Shown piece by piece: positions 7,415 through 39,312 of a stretch of 64,000 bases of DNA. Under the pieces are notes generated by a model. That model was not told the origin of the DNA. It made no database searches and saw only the letters and a program-made list of their open reading frames with translations. Position 1 is the first letter of the stretch. The number at the start of each line of letters is the position of its first letter. The DNA comes from an uncultured Emergencia sp. Its GTDB lineage: Bacteria > Bacillota > Clostridia > Peptostreptococcales > Anaerovoracaceae. The stretch covers positions 1 to 64,000 of the forward strand of contig CAJFTU010000046.1 in the NCBI GenBank assembly GCA_904420065.1. Direction: 5' to 3'. A program made the translations under genes and the position numbers.

Positions 7415-8800
7415 TCACTGTTTCTCTTCTCCTATTCTGTACTTACCCAGCTTATAGCTCAGTCCCTGTTTGGTAATCTTCAGTTTCCTGGCCGCCTCAG
7501 AAAGGCTCTTGGATTCTTTCAGCGCCTCGGTGATCAATTGCTTTTCGTACTGAGAAACCATCTCCTGCAGGGAATACTGACCGATCTGAGTCGATATACC
7601 CTCCCTCGGTTTCGTTCCGATCTCTTCCCGGAGGAGATATTCCGGCAGATCGCTGAGCTGAATGACTCTCGATGAGAGCAGATTAAAGGCTCCTTCTATG
7701 ATGTTCTTCATCTCCCGCACATTGCCCGGCCAGGAATAGTCCATGAACAGCTCTTCAACCTCTTCTGACACGTCCAGCACGTTCTTTCCCATACGATGGT
7801 TGTAATAATCGATGAAATGACGAACAAGAAGAGGTATGTCTTCCTTTCTCTCCGCAAGTCCCGGGATGTTCAGCCGTACAACACTGAGCCTGTACAGAAG
7901 ATCCTCCCTCATTTTCTTTCTTCTCACGCATTCCTCCGGCAGTTCGTTTACTGCCGAAATCACCTTTACATCTATAGGGATCGGTTTAGTGCCGCCGATT
8001 CTGGTTACCTTCTTCTCTTCGATCACTTTTAGCAATTTAGCCTGCATACCGATCTCCATAGAGTTGATTTCATCGAGAAAAATGGTGCCTCCGTTGGCGA
8101 TCTCAAACAATCCGGGACGGTTTTCCGCTCCGGTATAGCTCCCCCGTACAGTGCCGAACAAAATACCCTCGAGCAGGGTTTCGGGAATTGCCGCGCAGTT
8201 TTGCGAAACGAAATGGTTCTTCTTCCGATGTCCGGCCGTGTGGATGGATTGAGCGACTAACTCCTTTCCTGTTCCTGTCTTTCCGTAAATCAAGACAGAA
8301 GAATCCGTCGCGGCCACTCTGCTGATCCTTTCCTTTATCTCTTTCATCTGAGGGGAACAGGTAATGATATCATCCACAGTATAAAGGCGTTCGCTCTGTG
8401 CGCCGGCCTCCTTCAGGGAAAGGGGAATGTCCTTCCTTGAAAACTCGTCGTCTACCCATCGGGTCACTTCGGCTACGCCGATCACCTTTCCGTCGGCTTT
8501 AATCGGTATAGTGGTATTCACACCGTTAAAAACCTGTCCTGTTCCTGCTGCTCTCATTACCTGAAATTCGTTGTAAATAGGCTTGCCGCTCCGGATCACC
8601 CTGTAAATACTGCTTTCCTCCTCGTTCAGATCCGGATAGACCTCAAGAATATTCTTTCCCCGGATATCTTTCTCATTCAACCTGTTCTGATCAGGCCGAT
8701 TGTTAACGTAATATTCTATAATGCCTCTCTCATTTGTTACTAAAATCGCATCGATATAATTAAATACATTCAGAATCTGCTCTACATATCTCCGCAGCAT
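7415..8800 (-). CDS. Sigma-54-dependent activator with PAS domain, RocR-like
   Basis: A 461-residue enhancer-binding protein. Residues ~10-130 form a PAS-type sensor. The AAA+ core carries Walker A GKTGTGKE, the sigma-54-contact loop as GSYTGA instead of GAFTGA, Walker [13 protein letters not shown] and the arginine-finger region LLYRLSVVRL. A Fis-type helix-turn-helix closes the protein (SEAARKLKITKQGLSYKL). The DEINSM/ENRPG signature recalls RocR of arginine catabolism. Start 8800 has AAAGGAGG; the frame extends 21 codons upstream without one. It is divergent from a permease that has a sigma-54 promoter, its likely target. Confidence 0.9.
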   Translation of the reverse strand: MLRRYVEQILNVFNYIDAILVTNERGIIEYYVNNRPDQNRLNEKDIRGKNILEVYPDLNEEESSIYRVIRSGKPIYNEFQVMRAAGTGQVFNGVNTTIPIKADGKVIGVAEVTRWVDDEFSRKDIPLSLKEAGAQSERLYTVDDIITCSPQMKEIKERISRVAATDSSVLIYGKTGTGKELVAQSIHTAGHRKKNHFVSQNCAAIPETLLEGILFGTVRGSYTGAENRPGLFEIANGGTIFLDEINSMEIGMQAKLLKVIEEKKVTRIGGTKPIPIDVKVISAVNELPEECVRRKKMREDLLYRLSVVRLNIPGLAERKEDIPLLVRHFIDYYNHRMGKNVLDVSEEVEELFMDYSWPGNVREMKNIIEGAFNLLSSRVIQLSDLPEYLLREEIGTKPREGISTQIGQYSLQEMVSQYEKQLITEALKESKSLSEAARKLKITKQGLSYKLGKYRIGEEKQ

Positions 8801-8857: not shown

Positions 8858-8873
8858 TGGCACGTTTTTTGCT
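8858..8873 (+). promoter_or_regulatory. Sigma-54 promoter of the TauE-like permease
   Basis: TGGCACGTTTTTTGCT matches the -24/-12 consensus TGGCACG-N4-TTGCW. The invariant GG (8859-8860) and GC (8871-8872) are 10 bp apart as required. Transcription would start near 8884, 36 bases before the permease ATG. Confidence 0.85.
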
Positions 8874-17900: not shown

Positions 17901-18704
17901 TCAATCCAGATCCTCAAGGTGAAGCAGCCCTTCGCCGCCGCTCATGGCCACCGCTCCCTCTATCAGGTTTCGCAGCTCCCGCACGTTCCCGGGATACTCT
18001 CTTTTGATCAGCTTTTCCACAGAATTTTTATCGAGTCCGCAGAATTTTTTACCGTACTTTTCGTCCGCTTCCCGAAGAAAGGCTTCAATATATAGAGGAA
18101 TATCTTCCTTTCGCTCCCGCAGCGGCGGCAAATCGATCCGTATGACGTTGAGCCTGTAGTACAGATCCCTGCGCAGAAGGCCTTCCCGAATCAGAGTCTC
18201 CGGATCCTCGTTCAGCGAAGCGATGAGCCGCGTGTCAAAGGCGATATCCCGAACTCCGCCTACCCTGCGCAGTTGTCCCTCCTGAACAGCCCGCAGCAGC
18301 TTAGCCTGAAGATAGGCCGGCATCGAATTCAGTTCGTCGAGCATCAGTGTGCCGCCATCGGCTTCCTCAAACAGGCCTTTACGACTGACTGCTTCAGTAA
18401 ACGCTCCGGACTCGGTCCCAAAAAAAATACTCTCGGTCAACCCCGGCGGAACGGCGCTGCAGTTTTCCGCTACGTACGGACCTCTTCGCCTTCGGCTTCC
18501 CTCATGGATAGCCCTGGCGAATACTTCTTTGCCCGTCCCTGTCTCTCCGGTAATCAGTACCGGAAGATCGATTGCCGCCGCTTTTTTGGCAATTTCCACC
18601 TGACGTCTGAACGCGGGCGAATTTCCGATCAACTTCTCGAAAACCGATTCATCTGTATTTAATGTCGTAGTCGTTGAGTTTCTTGTACAGGTTTTTTCTG
18701 GCAA
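17901..18704 (-). CDS. Orphan sigma-54-type AAA+ ATPase without sensor or DNA-binding domain
   Basis: About 267 residues consisting almost only of the AAA+ core of a sigma-54 activator: Walker A GETGTGKE, Walker B GGTLMLDELNSMP, arginine-finger region LRRDLYYRLNVIRI and [15 protein letters not shown]. The sigma-54-contact loop reads GAFTEA instead of GAFTGA. The protein ends at LHLEDLD with no Fis helix-turn-helix and begins with no receiver or PAS domain. The TTG at 18704 follows AGGAGA by six bases and overlaps the upstream response regulator by 56 bases; an ATG at 18734 lacks a ribosome site. It is either a degraded paralogue or a co-translated partner of the regulator. Confidence 0.7.
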   Translation of the reverse strand: MPEKTCTRNSTTTTLNTDESVFEKLIGNSPAFRRQVEIAKKAAAIDLPVLITGETGTGKEVFARAIHEGSRRRRGPYVAENCSAVPPGLTESIFFGTESGAFTEAVSRKGLFEEADGGTLMLDELNSMPAYLQAKLLRAVQEGQLRRVGGVRDIAFDTRLIASLNEDPETLIREGLLRRDLYYRLNVIRIDLPPLRERKEDIPLYIEAFLREADEKYGKKFCGLDKNSVEKLIKREYPGNVRELRNLIEGAVAMSGGEGLLHLEDLD

Positions 18705-20016
18705 TGCACATCTCCTCTGCCGATTTGGCCACATTTCCGTTGTTTTTCTTCATGATTCGCGTAATATATTCCTTTTCGAAGGCCCGCGTCATGTGACGCA
18801 GGGCTGCCGTCTGTTCTCCGGTCTGCTTTTCGTCTTGGTCCAGTTCTCTGATCTCTTCCGGCAGATTCGCCTCGTCAATTTCTCCGTCCGCGGACAACAC
18901 GACCAGCCGTTCCACAATATTTCTCAGTTCCCGTACGTTTCCGGGCCAATCGTACCGCTGCAAAAGACGGAGCAGTTCTGGAGAAAGAGGCGCCGCGCTC
19001 TTGTTCATCTCCCTGGTGTACTCGTCGAGAAAGCTCTCGCACAAAACCGGAATATCTTCCTTCCGCTCGCGCAGCGGCGGGATCTCTATAGGTATGATAT
19101 TGATCCGGTAAAACAGATCTGCCCGAAACCGGTTTTCTTCCACTTCTCGCTTCAGATCCCGGTTAGTCGCCGTAATCAGGCGGAAATCGCTTCTGATAGA
19201 ATCACTTCCGCCTACCCGTTCAAAAGACTTCTCCTGAAGCACCCGCAGCAACTTTACCTGCATGTTCAAACTCAGCTCTCCGATCTCGTCGAAGAAAATT
19301 GTACCTCCGTCGGCTGCCTCGAACCGTCCCTTTCTCTGCCGTTCCGCTCCCGTATACGCGCCCTTCTCACTGCCAAAAAGCTCGCTCTCGATCAGATTTT
19401 CGTTGAGCGCGCCGCAGTTAACACAGATGAAAGGTTTGTCCGCCCGTCTGCTGCACCGATGAATCATGTTGGCCAAGATTTCTTTTCCCGTTCCTGTCTC
19501 TCCGGTGATCAACACCGCCGAATCCGTTTCTCCTACAATCTGCGCCTTTTTCCTCAGCTCCGACGCTGCCTGCGATACGCCGAGAAATTCTTTGCGGGCA
19601 GGCATTCCGGCCAACTGGCTTTTCAAAATATCATTTTCCAGCCGCACGCCGGCCAGTTCGGCAGCCTTCCTCACGTTAGAGAGCAGTTCATCTATATCGG
19701 CCGGCTTAACCAAATAGGAAAACGCTCCCTTTTTCACCGCTTCTACAGCGCCGGAAATGGAACCTTCCGCGGTAAGCATGATCACCTCTGTCTCCGGGCG
19801 GATCTTTTTGATCGCATCCAGCAGCTCCATTCCGTTCATCTTGGGCATAATGATATCTGAAACGACTACGGAAAACGTCCTGTCCCGGATCAGCTTCAGC
19901 GTGTCCAGACTGCTGCTGCAAGTCAAAACCTGGAAACCTTTCAGACGAAAGATCTTCTCGTACACTTCAAGGAGCTCTGTATCGTCGTCAATCAGCAATA
20001 TCGGCGCCTTTGTCAT
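18649..20016 (-). CDS. NtrC-family sigma-54-dependent response regulator
   Basis: 455 residues in three domains: receiver (~1-120) with the acidic pocket DDD near the N-terminus and phosphoacceptor Asp in VVVSDIIMPKMNG; AAA+ core with GETGTGKE, contact loop GAYTGA, GGTIFFDEIGEL and FRADLFYRINIIPI; and a C-terminal Fis-type HTH (NGNVAKSAEEMCIARKNLYKKL). AGGAGG lies upstream of the ATG, which overlaps the sensor kinase gene by 29 bases. The likely target is the sigma-54 promoter at 24582-24597 in front of the hydrolase-permease pair. Confidence 0.92.
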   Translation of the reverse strand: MTKAPILLIDDDTELLEVYEKIFRLKGFQVLTCSSSLDTLKLIRDRTFSVVVSDIIMPKMNGMELLDAIKKIRPETEVIMLTAEGSISGAVEAVKKGAFSYLVKPADIDELLSNVRKAAELAGVRLENDILKSQLAGMPARKEFLGVSQAASELRKKAQIVGETDSAVLITGETGTGKEILANMIHRCSRRADKPFICVNCGALNENLIESELFGSEKGAYTGAERQRKGRFEAADGGTIFFDEIGELSLNMQVKLLRVLQEKSFERVGGSDSIRSDFRLITATNRDLKREVEENRFRADLFYRINIIPIEIPPLRERKEDIPVLCESFLDEYTREMNKSAAPLSPELLRLLQRYDWPGNVRELRNIVERLVVLSADGEIDEANLPEEIRELDQDEKQTGEQTAALRHMTRAFEKEYITRIMKKNNGNVAKSAEEMCIARKNLYKKLNDYDIKYR

Positions 20017-32097: not shown

Positions 32098-32931
32098 TTA
32101 AAACAGCGGATTGTAAAAATCCGAACCAGCGCCAAAGACTACCTGTCTGAGCGCCATCAGCTGATCCATGTTTTCAGCGCTGACAGCGACGGTCATGGAG
32201 TCGACCCGTTCTGTTCCCGGCACACGCATAGCCCCGTCGGCCAAATTGACCTGCTGAAAGGTTACTTCCATCCTCGGATTTTTCGGAACGCTGACCGGTT
32301 TCTTCTGTTTTGCGGATTTTACGGCCTTTTCGGCTGTCTCTCTGATCATCTTCAGCGTCTGTTCCCGCGGCAGGCACTTGGCGCAAAATCTGCCTTCCGC
32401 ATACTTTACAACGACGGTTTCCACGTCAGCATAAAAATCCCTGGCTTCTTTTTCCAAAGCCTGATCTCCGGTAGCCATGATAAGCGGAACGCCCTTTTCC
32501 GCTGCAAAGAGGGAATTGAACCCCAGCTCGCCGACACTGACGCCGTTCACGCGCAGATCACGGATGGTTTTCGGCGCAAAGGTGTGGTCCAGTATGGCAT
32601 TCTGTGTTCCAAACTTTGCGTGATATCCCAGAGTGATCAAACCGTCGAAAGTCTCATCCAGGCTGTGAACCATGGAATTTCTGCGAGTATCTCCCCGAAG
32701 CAGCTGAACCCTGCTGTCCAGCATTTCCGGGTGGATATTGGCGGATACATTATGAGAATCGCAGACGATAACTTCCGTCGCTCCTCCGGCAAAAGCGCCT
32801 TCAGCCGCGGCGTTGACCTCCTCCGTCATAAAAACGCACGCTTTGGCGTAGCCGGCGCCCACTTCCTCTACATCCTCAGGCAGAGCAATTCCGTTTACAC
32901 CCTCCAAATCAGCGGATATGAATATTTTCAT
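32098..32931 (-). CDS. D-aminopeptidase, peptidase M55 (DppA family)
   Basis: 277 residues. The zinc motif SADLEGVNG at the N-terminus, CDSHN near residue 60 and TLGYHAKFG near residue 102 identify M55, a family that releases N-terminal D-amino acids from short peptides in a decameric ring. AAGGAG precedes the ATG. Its upstream neighbour is an M19 dipeptidase with a sigma-54 promoter; the 130-base gap between them shows no terminator, so they may be co-transcribed. Confidence 0.9.
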   Translation of the reverse strand: MKIFISADLEGVNGIALPEDVEEVGAGYAKACVFMTEEVNAAAEGAFAGGATEVIVCDSHNVSANIHPEMLDSRVQLLRGDTRRNSMVHSLDETFDGLITLGYHAKFGTQNAILDHTFAPKTIRDLRVNGVSVGELGFNSLFAAEKGVPLIMATGDQALEKEARDFYADVETVVVKYAEGRFCAKCLPREQTLKMIRETAEKAVKSAKQKKPVSVPKNPRMEVTFQQVNLADGAMRVPGTERVDSMTVAVSAENMDQLMALRQVVFGAGSDFYNPLF

Positions 32932-33061: not shown

Positions 33062-34012
33062 TTATTTGCCTGTCACGTCTTTGATAATTCTCAGCGCGTT
33101 CAGGCTGCATATTTTATCGATTTCGTCGTCTGTGAATTTCTTTTCCATAGCAGAAAGCAGCCGGGTAAATCCGCTGTAGTTTACCAGTTCTCCGTTGTCC
33201 TCGATACCGTCAAAGTCCGAACCAAATCCCAGAGCGTCGATTCCCGCCTTGTCCTTCATATAGACCAGATGATCGATGATCTGTTCAATCGTAGCGTATT
33301 CCGAATCTTCTTTGAGGAAATAGTTGTAGAAGTTTACGCCGACAACGCCGCCTGCATTACCCAGCGTCTTCAACTGATCGTCGGTCAGGTTTCTGCGGTG
33401 ATTACAAAGAGCCCTTGCGCAGGAATGGGAAGCTACAAAAGGCTGTTTACTCAGCTTAGCCACATCGTAAAAACCACCTTCTGACAGATGGGAGGTATCG
33501 ATGATCATTCCCAGTTCGTTCATCTTTGCCACCACTTCTTCGCCGAAAGGCTTGAGTCCTCTCATATGCTCCTGCGGATCGTCGCTGGTCGGATAGCCTG
33601 CGGAATTTTCAAAGTTCCACAGGAGAGTGATCAGTCTTACGCCCTTGTCATATACTTCCTGGACTCTCTCGATCTTTCCGTCGAGAAAGACGCCGTCCTC
33701 TATGGTCAGAAATGAAGATAAAAACCCTTCTTCTCTGTTTTTCTCAATATCTTCTGTGTTGAATACCGGACGGATCACATCTTTATTCTCCTCCATGACC
33801 CGGGTATAGTAGTCATACATCGCGTTGAACAGGTCGTAAGGATCCATCGTTTCCATCTCATCTCTCGGAAGATAGATCGCAAAGAACTGAGCCAGAGAAT
33901 CGTTTTCTTTCAACAGCTTGAGATTGATCGAGGTTTCTCCGTCGTAGAAACTTCTTTGCGGATGGCGAAAGCCTTCCATCAGCGTATCGCAGTGCATATC
34001 GATAATTCTCAT
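33062..34012 (-). CDS. Membrane dipeptidase family (peptidase M19) zinc dipeptidase
   Basis: 316 residues. RIIDMHCDTL gives the first HxD zinc site, IEDGVFL the bridging Glu, DTSHLSEGGFYDV and ASHSCARALCNHRRN the later histidines, and GFGSDFDG the C-terminal Asp. M19 enzymes cleave dipeptides, including ones with a C-terminal D-residue. AGGAGG precedes the ATG at 34012. It has its own sigma-54 promoter. Confidence 0.92.
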   Translation of the reverse strand: MRIIDMHCDTLMEGFRHPQRSFYDGETSINLKLLKENDSLAQFFAIYLPRDEMETMDPYDLFNAMYDYYTRVMEENKDVIRPVFNTEDIEKNREEGFLSSFLTIEDGVFLDGKIERVQEVYDKGVRLITLLWNFENSAGYPTSDDPQEHMRGLKPFGEEVVAKMNELGMIIDTSHLSEGGFYDVAKLSKQPFVASHSCARALCNHRRNLTDDQLKTLGNAGGVVGVNFYNYFLKEDSEYATIEQIIDHLVYMKDKAGIDALGFGSDFDGIEDNGELVNYSGFTRLLSAMEKKFTDDEIDKICSLNALRIIKDVTGK

Positions 34013-34104: not shown

Positions 34105-34120
34105 AGCAACGATCATGCCA
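34105..34120 (-). promoter_or_regulatory. Sigma-54 promoter of the M19 dipeptidase
   Basis: Minus-strand TGGCATGATCGTTGCT fits TGGCAYR-N4-TTGCW with GG and GC 10 bp apart. Predicted start near 34093, about 80 bases before the ATG. A CCGTTTTA half-site like those at 36583-36627 lies near 34150. Confidence 0.8.
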
Positions 34121-34181: not shown

Positions 34182-34214
34182 AAAAAAGGGAAAGGAGCTT
34201 CTCTCCTTTCCCTT
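34182..34214 (-). terminator. Intrinsic terminator after the LD-carboxypeptidase gene
   Basis: Minus strand: AAGGGAAAGGAG (34214-34203) pairs with CTCCTTTCCCTT (34197-34186), then a T-run. It ends the spmA-spmB-ldcA transcript, so the M19 gene needs its own promoter. Confidence 0.85.
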
Positions 34215-34258: not shown

Positions 34259-35176
34259 TTATCTTTCCACGTGGAAAACGATCGATTTATCCGCGGTATC
34301 CATAGTACACCGGGCGCCCATCGGCAGGGTCATCATCGGGAAACTGTGACCTGACTGGATGTTGTACATAACCGGTATACCCAGTCCTTCCGTAGCATCC
34401 AGAATGACTCTGACGATATCATAGCCTTCCACATCTACATCGCACCGGGTAAACTGACCGAGGACAATTCCTGCGCACTCTTTCAGTTTTCCCGCATTGC
34501 GGAGCTGATAGATGTGTCTGTCCAGATTTCCGATATGCTCGCCAATCTCCTCGATAAAGAGGATCCTGCCTTTGGTATCCATTTCATACGGCGTTCCGAG
34601 AGAAGCGCACATTACCGTCAGATTTCCTCCGGTCATAATGCCTTCCGCTCTTCCCTCCCGGGCGATACCGACCGGATATCCCTTCGGCGCAGGATATGCG
34701 TATTCTTTTTCCGCCGTCAGCGCATCCATAAACGAATTCTTGGTTTCTTCGTCGAACTGATCCACCATATTGGATGAAACCATCGGTCCGTGGAATGTGA
34801 CAAGATCGCACTCCTGGTTAAACAGAAGGTGGAGACTGGTTACGTCGCTGTATCCCACAAAGATCTTCTTATTGTTTCTCACAATGTCCAGATCGATATA
34901 GTCGATAATTCTGTTAGCGCCGTCTCCGCCGCGCTGGCAGAATACGGCGTCTACCTCTTCGTCCTGGAACATCTTGTTGATCCATTCGCCTCTTGCCTTT
35001 TCTTCACCGGCCATGTAGCCGCCTTTCGAAGCGGACAGATTGTCTGCCATCTTAACCTTGTAGCCCAGACCTTCGAGAACAGCTTTGCACTGCGCCTGTC
35101 GCTCTTCTTCTACAGGAGAGCTTGGAGCGATGACGCCGACCACTGCCCCTTCTTTCAATTTAGCTGGATATTTCAT
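34259..35176 (-). CDS. LD-carboxypeptidase, peptidase S66 (LdcA/MccF family)
   Basis: 305 residues. The serine nucleophile region FHGPMVSSNM (~residue 125), the Glu in FIEEIGE (~residue 205) and the His in SGHSFPMMTLPMG (~residue 275) form the Ser-Glu-His triad. LdcA enzymes remove the terminal D-Ala from murein tetrapeptides inside the cell; MccF types act on microcin-like conjugates. Third gene of the spmA-spmB operon, 40 bases after spmB. Confidence 0.9.
   Translation of the reverse strand: MKYPAKLKEGAVVGVIAPSSPVEEERQAQCKAVLEGLGYKVKMADNLSASKGGYMAGEEKARGEWINKMFQDEEVDAVFCQRGGDGANRIIDYIDLDIVRNNKKIFVGYSDVTSLHLLFNQECDLVTFHGPMVSSNMVDQFDEETKNSFMDALTAEKEYAYPAPKGYPVGIAREGRAEGIMTGGNLTVMCASLGTPYEMDTKGRILFIEEIGEHIGNLDRHIYQLRNAGKLKECAGIVLGQFTRCDVDVEGYDIVRVILDATEGLGIPVMYNIQSGHSFPMMTLPMGARCTMDTADKSIVFHVER
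34264..34277. repeat. parS-like palindrome in the LD-carboxypeptidase 3' end
   Basis: TTTCCACGTGGAAA is a perfect 14-bp palindrome at the very end of the coding region. It resembles both parS (TTTCACGTGAAA core) and the Noc site (TTTCCCGGGAAA core) but equals neither. Confidence 0.3.
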
Positions 35177-35216: not shown

Positions 35217-35753
35217 TTAATACCACATGATATTTACGATAACGGCAGCCATGATCAGGGAGAACAGGTCTCCGAGTACGCCGGCTATAGCTGACTGTCT
35301 TGAGTTGGTAATTCCTACCGCGCCGAAGTATACGGCCAGTACATAAAAGGTTGTTTCCGTAGATCCGAAGGCTACAGAGGCGATTCTACCGATCTGAGAC
35401 TGGGTTCCGTACTGCGTCAGAAGGTCAGCGCACAGACCCTGGGCTCCGCTTCCGGAGAGGGAACGCATGATTCCCATAGGCAGAACTTCTGCAGGAAGTC
35501 CGATCAGAGAAGTAACCGGATTCAGGAGATCCACCAGCCAGTCCATAGCTCCCGATGCACGGAACATTCCGATGGCGCAGAGCATAGCGACCAGATAAGG
35601 GATAATCATTACGCCTGTCTCAAAGCCTTCCTTAGCGCCGTCTGTAAAGGTGGAGTAAGCCGGAACCTTTCTAACAAACAGAGCATAAAGAGGAATGAGC
35701 AGGACTACCAATGGTATTGCATAAGTTGAAATAAAGTCTAATACTGCCGACAT
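35217..35753 (-). CDS. spmB: SpmB-like nucleoside-recognition (Gate) domain membrane protein
   Basis: 178 residues, about five hydrophobic segments, with the Gate-domain motif GMFRASGAMDWLVDLLNP and the polar intramembrane stretch MRSLSGSGAQG. SpmB is named from B. subtilis, where spmA/spmB affect spore core dehydration. AAGGAGG within the spmA end couples the two. Here the pair sits under a sigma-54 promoter with peptidases, which suggests a transport rather than a sporulation role (inference). Confidence 0.85.
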   Translation of the reverse strand: MSAVLDFISTYAIPLVVLLIPLYALFVRKVPAYSTFTDGAKEGFETGVMIIPYLVAMLCAIGMFRASGAMDWLVDLLNPVTSLIGLPAEVLPMGIMRSLSGSGAQGLCADLLTQYGTQSQIGRIASVAFGSTETTFYVLAVYFGAVGITNSRQSAIAGVLGDLFSLIMAAVIVNIMWY

Positions 35754-35755
35754 GC

Positions 35756-36439
35756 CTACGCCTCCTTTTCCTCGATGACAAGAGGGTCATCACCGATATA
35801 GTTTTCATTGATTCTCAGTCTTCCGGCCGCTCTGTCCTTTTCGATGAGATAATCGTATCTGAAGCACTTCAGTCTTCCCAGCAGCTTTGTGGAAATGATG
35901 CAGACCAGAGCTGCGCAGAGTGTAGTCAGGATCGTCGGTCCAACGATCTCTGCTGCGCCGGTCGGATCCACGGTAGTACGCATAGCGATTACCGTCGACG
36001 GAATCAAGCAGATGGAACCTGTGGATATAGCCATAACCATGCACTGCGCATCTGTTGCGATGTTCTTGGTCTTATTCAGCGTTTGCAGATCCTGCATCGC
36101 TTTAATTCCCAGCGGTGTGCAGGCGTTGCCCAATCCCAGCATGCTGGCGGCCATATACATGGCGATAGTCGAGTTTGCCGGGTGCTCCTTTGGCACTCCC
36201 GGAAAGAGGAATTTCATAACCGGCGATAGCGCTCTGCCCAGTTTACTGCAGAGACCCGCTTCTTCCATCAGTTTCATCAGTCCGCAGAAGAAAGCCATTG
36301 TTCCGATCAGACCAATAGCAATTTTTACTGCTTCGTCTGCATAAGTAAAAAGCTGTGTCTGTACTTCGTCGATATTTCCCGTACAGATTCCCGCGATAAT
36401 TGCGATTGCCATCATCACTACCCAAATATAGTTCATCAT
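35756..36439 (-). CDS. spmA: SpmA-like nucleoside-recognition (Gate) domain membrane protein
   Basis: 227 residues, mostly hydrophobic, with Gate-domain features GLMKLMEEAGLCSKL and MLGLGNACTPLGIKAM. The ATG at 36439 follows GGGAGGTGG by seven bases. First gene of spmA-spmB-ldcA and 66 bases downstream of a sigma-54 promoter. See spmB for the role. Confidence 0.85.
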   Translation of the reverse strand: MMNYIWVVMMAIAIIAGICTGNIDEVQTQLFTYADEAVKIAIGLIGTMAFFCGLMKLMEEAGLCSKLGRALSPVMKFLFPGVPKEHPANSTIAMYMAASMLGLGNACTPLGIKAMQDLQTLNKTKNIATDAQCMVMAISTGSICLIPSTVIAMRTTVDPTGAAEIVGPTILTTLCAALVCIISTKLLGRLKCFRYDYLIEKDRAAGRLRINENYIGDDPLVIEEKEA

Positions 36440-36504
36440 AAGTAAACCACCTCCCAAGCGAAAATTTAAAGCAACTTTGAGTATTGCGTGACAGCAGCAT
36501 ATAT

Positions 36505-36520
36505 CGCAAAAACCGTGCCA
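36505..36520 (-). promoter_or_regulatory. Sigma-54 promoter of spmA-spmB-ldcA
   Basis: Minus-strand TGGCACGGTTTTTGCG matches the consensus nearly perfectly, GG to GC 10 bp. Predicted start near 36493. Confidence 0.85.
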
Positions 36521-36582
36521 TAGCTCTTCGTTTGGGTTTTTCTGCTTTTTTCGTCACTTTCCTCCCTTTTCCCTTCAGCCAA

Positions 36583-36627
36583 TTAAACGGTTTAAAACCT
36601 ATTTTGCCTGATTTTTAAACCGTTTTA
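36583..36627. promoter_or_regulatory. Pair of palindromes between divergent sigma-54 promoters
   Basis: TTAAAC-G-GTTTAA (36583-36595, perfect) and TTAAAC-C-GTTTTA (36615-36627, one mismatch) have centres 32 bp apart, three helical turns. They lie roughly 70-75 bp from one sigma-54 promoter and 40-70 bp from the other. The activator at 37342-39312 is the likely binder. Confidence 0.6.
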
Positions 36628-36651
36628 TCCGGTTCTTTTCGACTTATTATG

Positions 36652-36667
36652 TGGCATGTTTTTTGCA
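36652..36667 (+). promoter_or_regulatory. Sigma-54 promoter of the membrane protein-activator pair
   Basis: TGGCATGTTTTTTGCA, with GG at 36653 and GC at 36665, spaced 10 bp. Predicted start near 36679, 35 bases before the TTG start codon. The activator would thus drive its own synthesis. Confidence 0.85.
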
Positions 36668-36713
36668 TTCTATATGTGTAAATTACAACGACTATATAAC
36701 GGAGGTAACTGTT

Positions 36714-37325
36714 TTGCACAAAATTCCCTACACTTACACCAATAAATCCAAACAAGTCTTCTACCTTATGATCGTGGCCCTTCTGATTCTGCGCCTCATT
36801 CTGATGGGCGAAATATATTTTTTCGATCTGAAAGGCTACGACGTATACCTGCTCCCTACGGTTCTGTATTATCTGGTGCTATTTATCATTGTTACCGGTA
36901 TCTTTTTTGGATACAAGTTCTTCTTCACTCTCTACGACGAAGAAAAGATCGTCTACTGCAACCTGCTGCTCAAAAAGTCTTCCTCCATAGACTTCAGCGA
37001 GATCGCTTTCGCCCGTTTCGGCCGCAGAGGCATAGCGCTCTACCGCAGCCCCTCTCCCGAAGAAAAGGACAAGCCGGATCTGTTTATCCCGTTTTTTCGC
37101 TTTGGCATCATTCAGGCCATCCCGGTCAACGCTTTCTTCGAAACGCTGATCGAAAAAAGGAAGACGCAGGACCTGCAAATTGAAAAGGAGTTTAAGGTTC
37201 TGCCCGGCTACACCCGAATCTGGAATCTGGTTTCACTGGTCTACGCTTTTCTCTCCTTCTGTCTTCTGATCGTAGCTATGGAACCGCTGTACACGGTCAT
37301 CGTATTGTTCCAGAACTTTGCGTAA
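36714..37325 (+). CDS. Unknown membrane protein co-transcribed with a sigma-54 activator, TTG start
   Basis: 203 residues. Two membrane helices near the N-terminus (~16-34 and ~45-70), a soluble middle part (~75-170) reminiscent of a small PH-like beta domain ([19 protein letters not shown]), and a last helix near the C-terminus. GGAGGT precedes the TTG at 36714 by seven bases; an ATG at 36651 lies inside the promoter and is rejected. I do not recognise a family. Position suggests a signal-relay or accessory role for the activator 16 bases downstream. Confidence 0.7.
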
Positions 37326-37341
37326 TGGAGAAAGGCATAGC

Positions 37342-39312
37342 ATGAAACACGTTATCATCATCTATCGGAGAAGAGAAAATCTGAACGCTGTGGATTTCAT
37401 CAAGAAGGATCTGGAAGAGATATTCGCTTCCCACGTCGTTTTCGAAAATTTCTTCCTTTGCGATCTAAAGGAAGACATGCTCCTTGAAGCCGACGCTTTT
37501 CTTGCGCTGGGCGAAGACGTCTTCCGCCAGGTAAAAGACCATGTGGACGACTTCTCGAGAATCATCAAGATGAATCGAAGCCCCGACCGCACTTCGTTGA
37601 ACAAGATCTCCAAAATTCCTGCCAACACTGCAGTTCTCATCGTCAACGATACCTATGAAAGCTCTATTGATACCGTCAATTCCTTTTACGAGGTGGGAAT
37701 CAGCCACATCAACATGATCCCCTTCGACGAAGAACTGGAACACACCGGCATTTACGACCGGCTTCAGATCGCGGTTACCCCCGGTGAATCCGTCCTGGTT
37801 CCCCGGCATATCAAGAAAATCATCGATATCGGATACCGCAGGGTCAGCTTTGACACCATGTTCAAGCTGAAAAACATGCTGGAGCTGGACGTGGGTACAA
37901 TCGACCGCAATCTGTACCGCCATATCTACTCCATTCTGGAGCCGGATACGGCTTTCCACTCCAACTATATCTACGGTTTTCTCAAAAGCGAAATGCTCGG
38001 CCGCATAGCCAATTCCTCAAAATCCGGTCTCATCCTGACCGATAAAAGCTATCAGCCGGTCTACGTCAACGACAAAGCCGCGGAAATCTTCCAGTGCAGG
38101 AACAAGGCGCAGCTGCAGATTAAAGAATATATCGGAGAAGACATCCTCAACAACGAAGATCTGGTGGATACTTCTGTGGAAATTCTGGAAACACAGTACA
38201 GTTATTCCCGTCACGTCATCACGCTGATGGATGAAGTCATCGGTTATTATATCATGCTCGAAGAGGAAAACGAAACGGAAACGGTACACAAAAAAAAGGG
38301 ACTTTTCGCCAAATATCAGTTTAAGGATATCGTCTGCCGCTCCGAATGTATGCAAGAGGTCATCCGCACCGCCAGACAGATCGCTCTGACCGATCACACG
38401 GTGCTGATCCGCGGAGAAAGCGGTACAGGTAAGGAGCTGATCGCACAATCCATACATAACGCATCCTACCGGAGCAAGTACCCTTTTGTCGCAGTCAACT
38501 GCGCGGCTCTCCCCGACAGCCTCCTCGAAAGCGAGCTTTTCGGCTACGAGAAAGGCGCTTTTACCGGAGCCGCTCCGAAAGGACAGAGAGGTCTCTTTGA
38601 AAAGGCCAATCACGGAACCATCTTTCTCGATGAGATAGGAGACATTTCTCCAAAGCTGCAGCTCCGGCTTCTGCGTACCTTACAGGAGCACCAAATCATG
38701 CGAATAGGCAGCGACCACGTTATCGATATCGACGTTCGCTTCATTACGGCGACTAACCGGGACCTGGAAAAAGCCGTAAGCCGGGGAAGTTTCCGGGGCG
38801 ATCTGTTCTATCGGCTCAACGTTCTCCCTCTGGTTGTTCCGCCTCTTCGCGAGAGAAAGAGCGATATACCGGTTCTCCTGTCCTATTTCCTCGGAAATGA
38901 ATACCAGAATATCGATTCGAGAGAAATGGAAATCCTCATGAACTACGACTGGCCCGGAAATGTCCGTGAACTGCGAAACATCACCACCTATCTGCTGACC
39001 CTTTCCAAACTTCCTGAATACATTCTGGAACAAAAGTCTCAGTCAGGAAAAAGTTTCGACTTTAAAGCAGATACGGTCAGCGATATGATTCTCCAGATCA
39101 TATACGCCAACACCACCCTTTCCCACGGCGTCGGACGTCCCCTGCTGATACAGGAGCTGGGACAGCAGGGCTACAGTATCAGCGATGTAAAACTGAGAAA
39201 AATTCTGAAGCAGCTTCAGAGCGACGAACTCATCCAGATCGCAAAAGGACGAGGCGGCACGCGTATCACAAAAAAAGGAGAAGAACATCTTCGGCTTCTC
39301 CAAAACGGCTGA
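37342..39312 (+). CDS. Sigma-54-dependent activator with unusual N-terminal sensor and winged-helix C-terminus
   Basis: 656 residues. The first ~230 form an unrecognised, possibly PrpR-N/periplasmic-binding-like domain ([31 protein letters not shown]), then a PAS-like part (~235-310), then the AAA+ core with GESGTGKE, canonical [18 protein letters not shown] and [14 protein letters not shown]. Instead of a Fis helix-turn-helix the last ~75 residues look like a winged helix ([22 protein letters not shown] ... [15 protein letters not shown]). The ATG at 37342 has GGAGAAAGG. It most likely controls the peptidase-Spm genes and itself. Confidence 0.88.

Follow-up and report, generated by a model that had tools for sequence, protein, structure and literature searches.

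A predicted divergent sigma-54 control region with a proposed phased-repeat enhancer and a winged-helix activator in an uncultured Emergencia species

The intergenic region between the oppositely oriented genes Gate1 and ORFX, located in the 64-kb stretch of DNA analysed here (hereafter the window), can with reasonable confidence be read as a two-way sigma-54 control region, at which the activator encoded at 37342-39312 acts on a repeat array at about 36582-36635 to serve both promoters. In the mechanism proposed, the activator would sense a signal, probably a peptide or an amino acid since the genes that it would control encode peptidases and Gate transporters, and its winged-helix domain would bind the phased array. 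The protein would then assemble as an AAA+ ring and drive formation of the open complex by sigma-54 RNA polymerase at both promoters. Leftward, this would switch on Gate1, Gate2 and an LD-carboxypeptidase; rightward, it would switch on ORFX and the activator gene itself, which would constitute positive autoregulation in this lineage. The divergon as a whole probably switches on peptide scavenging. The argument draws on the promoter elements, which are conserved, on the order of the genes, on the domains of the activator, and on a repeat motif that precedes both related activator genes and other sigma-54 promoters of this genome. As judged from sequence and gene order, the locus appears to have the layout of divergent sigma-54 operons with a candidate common site and the activator gene in one arm.

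The promoter elements and the proposed intervening array

Two -24/-12 elements face outward from the region, namely TGGCACGGTTTTTGC (36506-36520, minus strand), directed toward the Gate1-Gate2-S66 operon, and TGGCATGTTTTTTGC (36652-36666, plus strand), directed toward ORFX and the activator gene. Both are exact matches to TGGCAY-N5-TTGC with GG and GC at the fixed spacing, and about 130 bp separate them, in full agreement with the original prediction. The genome also contains rpoN (one PF04552 match, 212 bits). The window shows no general enrichment of sigma-54-like sites: TGGCACN5TTGCW with at most two mismatches occurs 20 times in it, against 23.7 expected. Across the 2.41-Mb genome, the exact pattern TGGCAYN5TTGC occurs at 26 sites against 13 for the reversed pattern, so that about half of the isolated exact matches may be due to chance. 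What makes the pair credible above chance is its conservation in relatives. Elsewhere in the window, another exact element (8858-8872, plus strand) is divergent from a PAS/Fis-type activator gene (7415-8800, minus strand).

Between the two promoters lie the predicted TTAAAC-N-GTTTAA palindrome and its one-mismatch copy, identified as TTAAACGGTTTAA (36583-36595, no mismatch) and TTAAACCGTTTTA (36615-36627, one mismatch), which are the first and second strong units of the proposed enhancer and whose centres, at 36589 and 36621, are 32 bp apart. TTAAACGGTTTAA is the sole exact copy in the genome, and none of 200 shuffled 64-kb windows contained two such palindromes (one mismatch allowed in each) no more than 60 bp apart. 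The palindrome by itself shows no genome-wide enrichment: its 14 strand-matches are fewer than the 20 of the control.

A model based on palindromes alone was abandoned in favour of a repeat model, since TTAAACNGTTTAA is not enriched genome-wide and the perfect form is not common to the clade to which the locus belongs. The enhancer looks better described as a phased tandem repeat of AAWCCNATT units than as two independent palindromes, and the palindromes look like the strongest units of this array. The proposed array, with repeats phased at about 10 bp, spans 36582-36635 (plus strand), with cores placed by eye near 36588, 36598, 36608, 36620 and 36629. Strict 10.5-bp phasing was rejected for the window, as the core spacings estimated by eye are about 10, 9-10, 12-13 and 9 bp. 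The notion of a two-site enhancer is thus right about the two palindromes but incomplete, because weaker units lie between and beside them. The broader suggestion that one enhancer may serve both promoters is retained on the strength of the credible promoters, the single enhancer region and the activator gene in the plus-strand arm, with a phased array taking the place of two palindromes. Only some 45-60 bp separate the proposed enhancer from the right-hand -24, a distance that is close for looping and counts against this shared arrangement.

A tandem repeat with a 10-bp period, first noticed by eye, recurs upstream of the relatives of the winged-helix activator. AAWCYNNTTWAAWC is found exactly upstream of 12 of 43 such relatives (0.1 expected) and, when one mismatch is allowed, in 19 of the 43 upstream regions (3.1 expected). 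A matrix was built from 17 distinct sites that precede the genes of other winged-helix activators; neither the window nor any divergon contributed to it. Its top match in the entire window falls at 36582-36604 (score 11.2), overlapped by a match at 36592-36614 (score 8.7), and the last units of the array fit it poorly (1.8). Taken by itself, the score of the window is weak, as 11.2 was reached in 45 of 200 shuffled 64-kb windows and, when the 274-bp region alone was shuffled, in 43 of 5000 trials.

The activator and the genes of the two arms

The gene at 37342-39312 (plus strand) encodes a sigma-54 activator of 656 aa, as identified from Pfam, the GAFTGA motif in the translation and an AlphaFold model. 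It consists, in order, of an N-terminal alpha/beta domain, a PAS-like region, an AAA+ domain with GAFTGA and a C-terminal winged helix (HTH_12). The AAA+ domain (Sigma54_activat, PF00158, 231 bits) matches FleQ/FlrC, and the winged helix, assigned by Pfam to residues 583-651, shows the corresponding order of elements in the AlphaFold model. Pfam gave no match to the Fis-type HTH_8 in this protein, which consequently does not qualify as a Fis-type enhancer-binding protein. Assignment to the PrdR equivalog (NF041552) was also rejected, the score being 321.7 bits against a curated cut-off of 795. In a different part of the window (17901-20016, minus strand), a response-regulator sigma-54 activator is followed by an overlapping second AAA+ activator frame of 277 aa, which has GAFTEA in place of GAFTGA and in which no HTH was seen.

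ORFX (36714-37325, plus strand), the first gene of the plus-strand arm, encodes a 203-aa membrane protein with three predicted long helices and a PH-like beta domain, for which no family was found in Pfam or NCBIfam. Its model has a pLDDT of 91, and the long helices are taken as membrane helices. Structural searches place PH-domain folds on top with weak scores (best Foldseek E 0.07, VIA Z 7.7), leaving the modelled PH-like fold without a strong structural match. The activator gene begins 16 nt after ORFX and is therefore plausibly under the control of its own enhancer.

An unlikely reading, albeit the best placed of the alternatives, treats the array as an autorepressor site, either in addition to or instead of a feedback enhancer, such that an undetected weak sigma-A promoter makes the activator, which represses that promoter and activates the Gate1 arm only. 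Many of the paralogous activator genes carry the repeat just before a sigma-A-like -10 (TATACT, as seen by eye), which suggests self-repression in those paralogues, and DVU2106 of Desulfovibrio vulgaris represses its own sigma-70 promoter (PMC3897727). In the window, however, an exact sigma-54 element stands ahead of ORFX and of the activator gene that comes after it. Two pattern scans of the plus strand across the intergenic region and ORFX (36560-37342) detected no sigma-A-like promoter, and the idea of a sigma-A promoter before ORFX was dropped, with the caveat that such scans are weak evidence because weak promoters can escape them.

Somewhat less probable is the control of both promoters by another activator, either a winged-helix paralogue or a Fis-type protein, rather than by the product of the neighbouring gene. 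Many Sigma54_activat proteins are encoded in the genome, among which a winged-helix paralogue on contig C14 (61%) has a related site before its gene and could use the same sites. On the other hand, an orthologue of the activator (76% identity) is found within the same locus in the Emergencia MAG L107, whose divergon carries the same AAACCGTTT variant. For a Fis-type protein, the TCCT-N6-AGGA pairs found in other divergons are absent here, and the window's genome contains no close copy of the activator concerned, the best match being 33% over 583 aa. Near the C14 paralogue, a second divergent exact sigma-54 pair of the same genome (C14:57515-57594; L087/L284) measures 65 bp start to start, and scanning with the repeat matrix gives no site nearby.

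In the minus-strand arm, Gate1 (35756-36442) is a nucleoside-recognition/Gate membrane protein (PF07670), followed by the Gate membrane protein Gate2 (35217-35753; PF07670) and an LD-carboxypeptidase of peptidase family S66 (34259-35176; PF02016/PF17676). Gate2 is weakly similar to PRK10519, which goes by the name YjiG in E. coli, and its match to NF007811 falls under the cut-off. A terminator-like hairpin (34189-34206, minus strand) closes the Gate1-Gate2-S66 unit by pattern match, and local matches of this kind are no more numerous than in shuffles. Beyond it, a separate exact sigma-54 element, TGGCATGATCGTTGC (34106-34120, minus strand), precedes the gene for an M19 dipeptidase (33065-34012, minus strand; PF01244), and no TTAAAC-type site was seen adjoining this element. 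An M55 D-aminopeptidase gene comes next (32101-32931, minus strand; PF04951). A similar element precedes M19 in L107, where CTCCTGAGAAACAGGAG, resembling the TCCT enhancer type, lies ahead of the promoter. Near the locus are also an alanine racemase and a D-Ala-D-Ala dipeptidase-family gene. Collectively, the targets suggest the scavenging of D-amino acids and peptidoglycan peptides.

Conservation, possible feedback and a second type of enhancer

Homologues of ORFX were detected in 35 of 349 genomes of the family Anaerovoracaceae (45 matches), from which 42 intergenic regions were obtained after the omission of G142, G008 and G042, which have no adjoining divergent Gate1. The element toward Gate1 is exact in 40 of the 42 regions, the exceptions being G164 and G277, at a shuffle chance of 0.0006 per strand and region. 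Toward ORFX, an element with at most one mismatch occurs in 30 regions (5 exact, 25 with one mismatch) at a shuffle chance of 0.011, corresponding to about 0.5 of 42 expected; these 42 regions are mutually related and hence are not independent tests. In three of the 30 (G165b, G202b and G197b), the ORFX-ward element is 798-860 bp from ORFX. The layout of the promoter pair is conserved, by sequence comparison, in these related anaerobes. It is improbable that the right-hand element is fortuitous or decayed and that the enhancer serves the Gate1 promoter alone, for although 12 of the 42 regions, including the close relative G201, have no such element within one mismatch, it is exact in the window, far exceeds chance across the set and is aligned among the window, G202, G165 and G197.

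The divergons were first divided by eye into a-type and b-type on the basis of identity and neighbours, and an ORFX tree constructed later placed the 13 a-type loci, that of the window included, in one clade (support 97/94). Matrix scores are 8.8-24.1 in 10 of the 13 clade regions and at most 6.8 in the 29 other regions. The remaining clade loci, G072, G130 and G069, score 3.7; they have both promoters with no motif in between, which counts against the main reading. In G130 and G069, TTAATCCGTTTAA lies some 100 bp beyond the 3' end of ORFX (L241:15110-15122 and L242:10410-10422) and is possibly a remote enhancer.

The position of the activator gene varies within the clade. It directly follows ORFX at 3 of the 13 loci (the window, G202 and G165), and the contig of G197 ends at this point. 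As far as the sequence was read, ORFX is not followed by an activator gene at the other nine loci, and to these nine belong all five clade loci that lack the right-hand promoter (G201, G198, G116, G043 and G185). In G201, from the window's own genus, the activator instead comes after S66, behind a terminator-like sequence recognised by eye. Positive feedback requires the activator gene to lie after ORFX and would thus be lineage-specific; as a general property of the family, it is ruled out. The compact positive-feedback switch originally envisaged therefore survives as a plausible case of self-activation in the window, based on gene order, and not as a conserved feature.

A second type of enhancer characterises many of the divergons outside the clade. 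Pairs of TCCT-N6-AGGA sites occur in 19 of the 29 non-clade regions, exactly 21 bp apart in 18 of the 19, against 0.075 regions expected from shuffles, and in none of the 13 clade regions. A shared two-site enhancer thus appears to be widespread in the divergon, at sites unlike those of the window. A different activator is encoded near many of these loci, and PAS and Fis HTH_8 domains were found in two of them that were scanned; the rows L242 and EBP of the activator comparison gave incorrect, short frames and were set aside. In the paralogous divergons, a Fis HTH stands where the window's activator has a winged helix, which indicates that the enhancer changed along with its regulator. Both kinds are present as paralogues in G165, G202, G197, G198, G203 and G072. 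In G203, the divergon-adjacent activator gene is split over two overlapping frames (L244:3135-5098), which is likely a frameshift or an assembly error. We infer that the TCCT kind is older, as it is present on several branches outside the window's clade in a tree rooted only at the midpoint.

One tentative explanation is that the promoter pair kept its place and its genes while the module of enhancer plus activator was swapped once, from Fis and two TCCT-N6-AGGA sites spaced by exactly two helical turns (21 bp) to a winged helix and tandem repeats of one turn (10 bp), with self-activation arising afterwards in the lineage of the window. Equally speculative, as part of this same scenario, is that the move of the activator behind its own sigma-54 promoter turned the usual self-repression from a sigma-A promoter into self-activation dependent on sigma-54 only. 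Should this module swap have taken place, the result may be a bistable switch for peptide scavenging. The two paralogous divergons are also a natural setting in which to test how an enhancer and its activator can be replaced while the core promoters stay as they are, and how the sign of feedback depends on gene order.

Known systems and a candidate regulon

The general design, in which one of two divergent sigma-54 operons includes the activator gene, is already known from Desulfovibrio. In D. vulgaris, the type III secretion system governed by DVUA0100 comprises divergent sigma-54 operons with a common activator motif and the activator gene in one arm; it involves other genes and another activator, whereas the window combines a winged-helix DNA-binding domain with a putative phased-repeat enhancer (PMC4641369). 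The orp1/orp2 operons of the same species are likewise divergent and sigma-54-dependent, and are co-activated by one activator, DVU2106, at palindromic sites, much as a common activator is predicted here. Unlike the window's activator gene, which lies behind a sigma-54 promoter, DVU2106 is self-repressed at its own sigma-70 promoter, and the system needs IHF (PMC3897727). DVU0151 is a sigma-54 activator whose DNA-binding domain is described as a probable winged helix in place of the Fis HTH, and in this description it resembles the window's activator; it differs in having GAFSEA rather than GAFTGA and in the placement of its gene, which is divergent from its target rather than within a sigma-54 operon (PMC4641369). 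Among Clostridiales, the YpdR and XcyR groups of sigma-54 activators are predicted to control peptide-degradation and peptidase operons, a similarity in targets to the window that was drawn from the text. The same study assigns a Fis-type HTH to 335 EBPs, lists the own genes of MopR and DioR among their targets, and does not use the word 'winged' in the portion of its text compared (PMC6615313). The apparent novelty of the present locus is the pairing of a winged-helix activator with a phased-repeat enhancer in such a divergon. From it would follow a concrete model of the sites bound by winged-helix sigma-54 activators, namely tandem AAWCCNATT repeats; sites for this class are not described in those parts of the Desulfovibrio and Clostridiales literature used for comparison.

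The matrix was also applied to about 243 kb of the window's own genome, chosen mostly around sigma-54 sites and activators, and nine matches scored at least 11. Six of them are followed, 59-112 bp downstream, by an exact sigma-54 element: one is in the divergon region described here, and the others precede genes for an S58 peptidase (followed by M55), an M15 peptidase of the D-Ala-D-Ala type, a beta-lactamase-fold hydrolase, an oligopeptide-binding protein and an ABC transporter. These positions point to a candidate regulon for the use of D-amino acids and peptidoglycan peptides in Anaerovoracaceae. Two further matches overlap each other before the C14 activator gene, and one of them belongs to the training set. 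A weaker match (6.9), a AAACCGTTT variant, precedes the gene of a DcuC-family carrier on C33. The ninth match scoring at least 11, at C46:68398 (17.0), was counted as a false positive, as it precedes a gene whose product is DnaA-like by eye and is accompanied by TTATCCACA-like boxes. This stretch of C46 (about 68250-70901; L254), some 4 kb beyond the window, contains the dnaA-like gene with the TTATCCACA-like boxes upstream and a dnaN-like neighbour and, read by eye, is a probable replication origin.
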